Assembly: GCF_021290385.1 (NCBI RefSeq)
Contig: NZ_CP089928.1
Location: 1,100,501 to 1,164,500 of the forward strand
From: Microbulbifer sp. YPW16
GTDB taxonomy: Bacteria > Pseudomonadota > Gammaproteobacteria > Pseudomonadales > Cellvibrionaceae
Direction of reading: 5' to 3'
Length of the DNA: 64,000 bases
Numbering within the stretch: position 1 is the first letter of the stretch; the number at the start of each line of letters is the position of its first letter. The translations under genes and the position numbers were made by a program. Of this stretch, positions 58,611 through 59,263 are shown in pieces. The notes below the pieces were generated by a model. It saw nothing but the letters and a program-made list of their open reading frames with translations. It did not search any database and was not told the DNA's origin.

Positions 58611-58745
58611 GGCTGGGTCACAGCATTGGTTGTTATTGGGGCTTTACCGGAAGTGAATCACTTATCCGCCTCCAAGAAAAGCCTGATCGATGGCAAGTAC
58701 CGCGACCCGCAGGCAGGCAGGAGTGCCACCACCTGTCGCCTGGGC

Positions 58746-58772
58746 AAAAAAAAGGCCCCGCAATGCGGGGCC
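58746..58772 (-). terminator. Intrinsic terminator of the small-RNA candidate
   Basis: On the minus strand, the perfect stem GGCCCCGC/GCGGGGCC with a 3-nt loop is followed by eight T. No protein gene ends just upstream on that strand, so the terminator must serve a non-coding transcript. Confidence 0.9.
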
Positions 58773-58873
58773 TGAATCAGCGATGATGAGAGAAAACGGG
58801 AAGTCACGCAGTAAAAGCTTTGCCATAAACCCCGTGATGGGTTCCCGTAGCGAGGACCTTTCGGCCGCTCGCA
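58746..58873 (-). ncRNA. Candidate sigma-54-dependent small RNA (about 128 nt), undescribed
   Basis: The predicted start (about 58873) lies 12 nt from the -12 element of a sigma-54 promoter and the RNA ends at an intrinsic terminator. Reading 5' to 3', stem 1 (58872-58850) pairs GCGAG with CTCGC and contains GGCC-GAAA-GGTC with a GNRA loop. Stem 2 pairs 58848-58842 with 58802-58796 (ACGGGAA/TTCCCGT) and continues through a 3-nt bulge into ATCACG/CGTGAC. A single-stranded U/C-rich stretch of about 23 nt (58795-58773, TTTCTCTCATCATCGCTG within it) follows. Stem 3 is the terminator. This is the plan of an Hfq-type regulatory RNA. It matches no small RNA I know (not Qrr, CrcZ, GlmY/Z or RsmY/Z by eye). 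Open frames across it have no ribosome site. Confidence 0.6.
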
Positions 58874-58883
58874 ATCTAGATAA

Positions 58884-58900
58884 TGCAACCGGTATGCCAA
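58884..58900 (-). promoter_or_regulatory. Sigma-54 (-24/-12) promoter
   Basis: The minus-strand TTGGCATACCGGTTGCA fits TGGCACG-N4-TTGCW at ten of twelve positions, with the GG and GC dinucleotides at the required 12-bp offset. It is located so that transcription would begin at about 58873, at the foot of the first RNA stem. Confidence 0.75.
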
Positions 58901-59263
58901 CTTTGGTTTTTTTACGGATTTCCATCCACGGACGGCATGGCGCGGGGTTGGAACAGAGGGCAAAGCCCGCTGCGAAGCCGGATGGCGTGATCAGTACGCT
59001 CAATTTTCACCTCCCCCACGCTATCCTGAACCAATTCAGCCCGGAAACTGGTGCTAACGCACCAAAATCACGCACGCACGACCCCATAGCTGCCACATTT
59101 CGCAAACAGGCCGTGTCGGGCGTGCCTTGGCCCCCGGGATCGGGTAGGATCAAACCAGCAGCGACATCCTCGCACCGACTGGCAATTAGCCACTACCGGG
59201 TGCCCCCAACTACCGGTTCAATCAGGGTGTCGCTGGATGTAGCGCACAATTTAAGGTTGTTCT
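58901..59263. other. Intergenic region upstream of the sigma-54 promoter and of the desaturase gene
   Basis: No supported gene. A 6-4-6 inverted repeat TGGTGC-TAAC-GCACCA (59049-59064) lies about 185 bp upstream of the predicted small-RNA start, in the normal range for a sigma-54 enhancer-binding-protein site. The last 200 bp should also hold the desaturase promoter, but no clear -35/-10 pair was found. AAGG at about 59252-59255 is a possible ribosome site for the desaturase ATG. Confidence 0.45.

Follow-up and report, generated by a model that had tools for sequence, protein, structure and literature searches.

A conserved candidate sigma-54-dependent small RNA of Microbulbifer, with probable NtrC control and tentative targets in acetate use

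What, if anything, is encoded between the desaturase and kinase genes of Microbulbifer sp. YPW16? The question arises from a 64,000-nucleotide stretch of contig NZ_CP089928.1 (the window, to which coordinates refer), for which a preliminary description had proposed a sigma-54-dependent small RNA (sRNA) on the minus strand. Comparative sequence analysis supports that reading and adds to it a likely activator (NtrC), an invariant core at 58800 to 58779, restriction to one genus, and candidate targets. The predicted sRNA of ∼128 nt occupies 58746 to 58873 on the minus strand (C1:1159245-1159372 on the contig scale), its start being placed from the promoter and its end from the T-run. In order along that strand come the sigma-54 promoter, two hairpins and, after an open stretch rich in U and C, an intrinsic terminator. 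A −24/−12 element, TTGGCATACCGGTTGCA, was found where one had been described, at 58884 to 58900. The expected 5′ hairpin with a GAAA tetraloop folds at 58872 to 58850, where folding and covariation agree, and the long bulged hairpin folds at 58848 to 58796; the U/C-rich stretch that had been placed between the hairpins and the terminator is likewise open in the predicted fold. It includes most of the invariant core CCCGTTTTCTCTCATCATCGCT (58779 to 58800), which is mostly unpaired and is the proposed base-pairing seed. The terminator had been assigned to 58746 to 58772. It is present, recovered by terminator scan and by covariation, and only its edge needed correction: the stem of nine pairs begins one base farther out, running from 58773 to 58753 and followed by a T-run to 58746.

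Within a single genome, these signals differ in strength. The RNA folded from 58873 down (131 nt) has an energy of −56.6 kcal/mol, compared with a shuffled mean of −39.5 (z −4.76), and 0 of 200 shuffles reached it. The terminator scan of the region returned 1 terminator where shuffled sequence gives 1.0, which is chance level. TTGGCATACCGGTTGCA is the sole match to TTGGCAYR-N4-TTGCW in the 64 kb, and 5 of 100 shuffled sequences also give one match, so the promoter is weak evidence from one genome alone. It is conservation that raises the locus above chance, and by comparison among genomes the sRNA gene is well supported.

Of 37 Microbulbifer genomes, 36 yielded the locus to a blastn search with a 176-base query, the sole miss (G007) being a genome of 80% completeness; among 21 genomes from other families of the order, none did. 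Exact copies of the 22-nt core in the GTDB collection fell on 25 contigs, all of them from Microbulbifer, with records closest to the window's own possibly excluded from the count. A covariance model built from 36 copies (R1) was run over 390 genomes drawn from the order; the 10 that belong to the genus scored 88 to 151 bits, and no genome outside it exceeded 36.7 bits. The 22-nt core, CCCGUUUUCUCUCAUCAUCGCU, does not vary among 35 of the 36 genomes and is diverged in the other, G006. Promoter and upstream sites were counted in 36 copies from 35 genomes, without G006; L025 and L037 are one locus, and L025 was left out. GG-N10-GC is kept in 36/36 copies and TTGC in 35/36; G006, outside this count, also has GG-N10-GC. 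One genome (G004) contributes two copies. The second (L031:1461-1588), ∼1.8 kb away from the intact copy, carries a single substitution in the core, and its terminator is broken. This second copy is a decaying duplicate; it was excluded from the alignment (A1) and included in the promoter and upstream-site counts.

The preliminary description had staked its proposal in part on conservation of stems and promoter in close relatives, and the stems, like the promoter, proved to be maintained. Over 35 distinct sequences, a 24-pair structure has 96.5% of its cells paired, compared with a shuffled mean of 92.5%. Changes on both sides of a pair affect 7 pairs and 31 cells (shuffled means, 4.1 and 8.8), 20 of the 31 double-change cells falling in the 5′ hairpin. 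In the terminator hairpin, pairing over the aligned copies reaches 98.9%. Slid along the alignment, the structure is at most 47.7% paired, a comparison that is biased in favor of the tested structure, which was derived from the same alignment.

A protein-coding explanation was considered and rejected. Mechanically called open reading frames cross the region (101 and 113 amino acids on the same strand and 297 amino acids on the opposite strand). An AUG frame within the RNA is open to its end in 14 of 36 copies, closed in 20, and unread in 2; with the frame open in just 14 copies, there is no conserved small protein at the locus, where the preliminary description likewise saw no protein gene. 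A known RNA family was rejected as well: an Rfam scan of the whole 64-kb window found no family at its gathering cut-off. Qrr, CrcZ, and GlmY, which the preliminary description judged by eye to be unlike this RNA, have sigma-54 promoters, a feature that the Microbulbifer RNA appears to share, and families of these names are absent among the 33 Rfam matches up to an E value of 10. In the open-license literature, we found no paper that mentions Microbulbifer together with both small RNA and sRNA, and a broader query had no Microbulbifer paper among the matches listed.

Which activator might drive the promoter? Two putative sites lie upstream on the minus strand. Site 1, TGCGTGATTTTGGTGCG (59058 to 59074, 174 bases upstream of the promoter), is NtrC-like, and its right half matches the glnA site CGTGCCATTTTGGTGCG exactly. 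Site 2, TTGGTTCA (59027 to 59034), follows downstream at a distance of 33 bases from the TTTTGGTGC of site 1. Across the 250 upstream bases, 24/36 copies have an exact TTTTGGTGC in one orientation or the other (0.75% in resampled sequence), and 35/36 have one with at most one mismatch (13.5% in resampled sequence); in 28 of the 36, a second site, TGGTTCA or TGGGTCA, accompanies it. The full NtrC palindrome is weaker, with a mean of 10.4 of 14 compared with a shuffled 8.4; p is <0.05 in 16/36 copies and 0.11 in the window's own. Helical phasing of the site-to-promoter distances (P 0.056) is suggestive only, and we did not use it as evidence.

Other promoters of this genome carry the same motif. 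TGGCAY-N5-TTGCW occurs at 14 places, compared with 5 for the reversed control, and TTTTGGTGC/GCACCAAAA is found exactly upstream of the sRNA, of glnA, and of a gene pair encoding an ANTAR response regulator and then an NMT1-type protein, which we take to be nasT/nasS. Promoters of glnA and of the nasT/nasS type are classic NtrC targets. With one mismatch, the motif is also found at a formate/nitrite transporter promoter and at the promoter of a protein that by eye resembles a TonB-type receptor; given the latter, nitrogen genes are not alone in carrying the motif. NtrC itself is encoded (757 bits; cut-off, 558.6) at C1:2312980-2314356, ∼4 kb from the glnA promoter and ∼1.15 Mb from the sRNA. 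Because the upstream motif is common to the glnA and nasT/nasS-type promoters and NtrC is encoded, we conclude that the sRNA is likely under NtrC control.

The genome encodes six sizeable matches to NtrC-like ATPases, the five besides NtrC matching the NtrC model at 157 to 413 bits, all under its cut-off, and this makes it possible that a sigma-54 sRNA here answers to another activator and another signal. Site 2 (TTGGTTCA/TTGGGTCA), which contains no clean NtrC half-site, would fit such an arrangement. Site 1, however, is common to the glnA and nasT/nasS-type promoters of this same genome, and on balance we consider a different activator unlikely.

NtrC control would give the sRNA relatives in function. 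The nearest functional precedent is NrsZ of Pseudomonas, described in a review as a nitrogen-controlled sigma-54 sRNA that depends on NtrB/C and RpoN (PMC8395346). The Microbulbifer RNA would resemble NrsZ in being a sigma-54 sRNA with nitrogen control, which here is predicted from sequence. By description the two are set apart, since NrsZ is ∼226 nt, processed, and encoded beside ntrC, whereas the Microbulbifer RNA is ∼128 nt and sits between desaturase and kinase genes. An enterobacterial sRNA from the glnA 3′ untranslated region, presumably GlnZ, is released from the glnA mRNA, unlike the Microbulbifer sRNA, which appears to have its own promoter. Published work links that enterobacterial RNA to nitrogen limitation and to an action on sucA and carbon metabolism (PMC9731577), and it is in acting on carbon metabolism when nitrogen is limiting that the RNA proposed here would be similar.

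The neighbors named in the preliminary description, cyclic-di-GMP/kinase signaling genes and a desaturase gene, are present and conserved across the examined loci. In 37 of 38 loci the kinase gene follows downstream on the same strand, the remaining locus ending at a contig edge, and a divergent desaturase gene lies upstream in 37/38, having not been found in G006. This constant position of the kinase gene would be expected if the RNA were a sigma-54-dependent 5′ leader with an attenuator, controlling the downstream hybrid histidine kinase in cis. Against this, the RNA ends in a strong terminator with a T-run, and by eye there is no conserved alternative pairing; the part of it under strongest conservation is unpaired and shows complementarity to the starts of other genes; and a palindrome of the AGTGATTCACT type, with at most one mismatch and no more than 330 nt downstream of the terminator in 26/36 copies, suggests that the kinase is controlled separately. 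A cis-acting leader is, in our judgment, unlikely. The palindrome is probably an operator of the kinase gene; in the window it reads AGTGAATCACT (58652 to 58662) and sits past the sRNA terminator, ahead of the start of the kinase gene. No tie was found between sRNA function and the kinase or desaturase neighbors.

It is probable that the locus encodes a stand-alone sRNA, driven by NtrC and sigma-54 and acting in trans by base pairing under nitrogen limitation, a claim that does not include the acetate targets discussed below. At low nitrogen, phosphorylated NtrC on the upstream sites would activate sigma-54 RNA polymerase at the −24/−12 element, and an RNA of ∼128 nt would be transcribed up to the intrinsic terminator, its two hairpins leaving the invariant CU-rich core exposed. 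The core would then pair with the ribosome-binding sites of its targets, probably with Hfq, and block their translation; the involvement of Hfq and the mode of action are inferred. With acs, the erdR/crbR-like response regulator gene, and the DcaP porin gene as the best-supported targets, the effect would be to slow the use of acetate carbon under nitrogen shortage.

That the RNA acts by pairing in trans we consider probable. It could instead act by binding a protein, Hfq/Crc or an RsmA-type regulator, for which the nearly invariant GG-UUAUGGCAAA of the hairpin 2 loop might provide a site. We found no AANAANAA, the CrcZ-type Hfq/Crc decoy motif, on the sRNA strand of L001, which distinguishes this RNA from CrcZ-type decoys, and complementarity to ribosome-binding sites is greater for the core than for shuffled versions of it; protein binding in place of pairing is improbable. 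The loop motif, at 58816 to 58830, lies outside any modeled helix and is possibly a second functional element of the sRNA. In L024, L030, and L037, the same loop has an insert of ∼25 nt that could fold into an extra hairpin.

Candidate targets emerged from complementarity between the core and ribosome-binding sites in an acetate-use cluster, namely, those of acs, an erdR-like regulator gene, and a DcaP porin gene. In genome G000, a segment of the core, reverse-complemented, matched 11 non-self places, 3 just upstream of a start and 2 (L177 and L179) overlapping the start codon. The start of the erdR-like gene ranks first of 346 by duplex energy (−29.2), with 10 contiguous Watson-Crick pairs, or 14 when G-U pairs are admitted. 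Its product is a response regulator that scores 254.8 bits to NCBIfam ErdR, under the cut-off of 390. The gene adjoins acs (977 bits to AcsA), the DcaP porin gene, a gene for a symporter of the VC_2705 type that also matches acetate symporters, though more weakly (referred to here as actP), and a gene for a large sensor kinase, for which NahK/ErcS is the best-matching family. We read this as a CrbS/R-type acetate cluster. Published work states that CrbS/R (MxtR/ErdR) controls acetyl-CoA synthetase in some Gram-negative bacteria (PMC5436829) and that MxtR/ErdR (CrbS/CrbR) control acetate use in Vibrio and Pseudomonas (PMC8402216, PMC9927547, PMC5436829).

The erdR-like regulator is present in 29 of 48 genomes of the genus and absent from 19. 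In one clade, GAYGAG or a close form is found at the regulator start in 14/14 genomes, with energies of −22 to −29; for four of the 29 cluster genomes (G493, G490, G486, and G488), the seed used for energies was assumed by clade. A site at acs is found in 5 of those 14 genomes and in 8 of the 14 readable genomes of the other clade, and a porin site of 8 pairs is found in 4 genomes. The target site thus appears to move among genes of the cluster between clades. Exact 9-base complements to the 19-nt core are present at acs in 13 of 28 genomes, a count equaled by 0 of 3,000 composition-shuffled cores, and acs, porin, and actP jointly also give 13, equaled by 1 of 3,000; the corresponding P values are optimistic, because gene starts favor the real core over shuffled ones and related genomes are not independent. 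The porin gene alone gives 0/28 at 9 bases and 4/28 at 8 bases (P 0.03), and actP starts give no 9-base complement in 26 genomes. At 9 bases, any of the four cluster genes matches the core in 21/29 genomes. In these counts, G025 lacks the acs, porin, and actP regions (contig end), and two genomes have no actP. These three genes were examined as neighbors of erdR and not for matching; the erdR-like gene was selected through its matching start in G000, and its own shuffle P is not counted.

Background starts were taken from a simple open reading frame caller over about a tenth of each genome, with the erdR region deliberately included. The real core matches 5 of 346 of these starts in G000 and 4 of 267 in G020, targets included, which is more than shuffled cores would match. 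When intramolecular folding is included, the porin gene ranks first and the regulator eighth of 346 in G000, but in G020 acs ranks only 24th of 267. By duplex energy the G020 regulator is unremarkable too, 32 starts being at least as strong, and in one clade the energies as a whole do not stand out. In the 19 genomes without the regulator, the nearest acs is 62 to 63% identical, with no run of paired bases longer than 8, and at least 13 of these 19 genomes keep the sRNA. The sRNA must have targets beyond the acetate cluster. Support for the acetate-use genes is statistical, and we propose them as targets tentatively.

Should these proposals hold, an sRNA that responds to nitrogen is present throughout Microbulbifer and connects nitrogen status to the acetate switch in a way that can be tested. 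A nitrogen-controlled RNA acting on both the regulator and acs would place a further level of control between the sensing of nitrogen and the use of carbon. It would also be a clean example of an sRNA whose seed is frozen while the target site shifts from gene to gene within one pathway.

Two other pattern matches in G000, at the starts of genes for a CocE-type hydrolase and an FAD oxidoreductase, were discarded when they did not recur in three other genomes (30 of 49 places examined). Further strong predicted pairings at G000 starts (L260, L254, L249, and L252) concern proteins that by eye resemble an isovaleryl-CoA dehydrogenase, a universal stress protein, a class II fumarase, and an iron-sulfur (NarH-like) subunit.

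Finally, could the RNA be a highly diverged PrrF? PrrF (RF00444) is the top Rfam family by bits, at 28.5 for the window's RNA and at most 37.6 in the genus (L071), compared with a gathering cut-off of 90, and the locus is the genome's best PrrF match in 31 of 37 genomes of the genus. The L071 alignment spans both hairpins, a UCUC/UCAUC stretch, and the terminator, and the RNA shares with PrrF the order of 5′ hairpin, second hairpin, CU-rich open stretch, and terminator; such common parts (hairpin layout, anti-ribosome-site stretch, and terminator) can converge. The PrrF search also responds below its cut-off in 3 of 14 control genomes, and at a permissive Rfam threshold a betaproteobacterial toxic sRNA family matches the 3′ half with a better E value than PrrF. 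Upstream of the sRNA, the best Fur-box match averages 10.25 of 19, compared with 10.37 in shuffled sequence; the single copy L008 reaches 14 of 19, and eight PrrF-like relatives reach 12 to 17. The PrrF core (AGGCTAATCACGGTT/AGGCUAAUCACGG) has no exact match in the 25 genus genomes searched and one-mismatch matches in 3 of them, none at the sRNA locus. PrrF-like RNAs from other genera of the same family score up to 78.8 bits (0 of 81 genomes above the cut-off), with Fur-box-like sites and mostly, on a loose reading, the GGCUAAUCACGG core. Because the Microbulbifer RNA falls below the cut-off and has neither Fur box nor PrrF core, membership in that family was rejected, and even a highly diverged member is improbable. 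We give as little weight to a history in which a PrrF-type RNA escaped Fur in the Microbulbifer ancestor and was re-used under NtrC and sigma-54, the scaffold of hairpin, seed, and terminator passing from an iron to a nitrogen signal and the seed being refitted to the acetate switch (acs, the ErdR/CrbR-like regulator, and the porin), with the site carried by different genes of the cluster from clade to clade.

Weak order-wide matches to the covariance model R1 (25 to 37 bits) were read by eye for the loci returned. Four of them (L048, L049, L053, and L060) are a different conserved hairpin-and-terminator RNA, in genomes of another family (f26).
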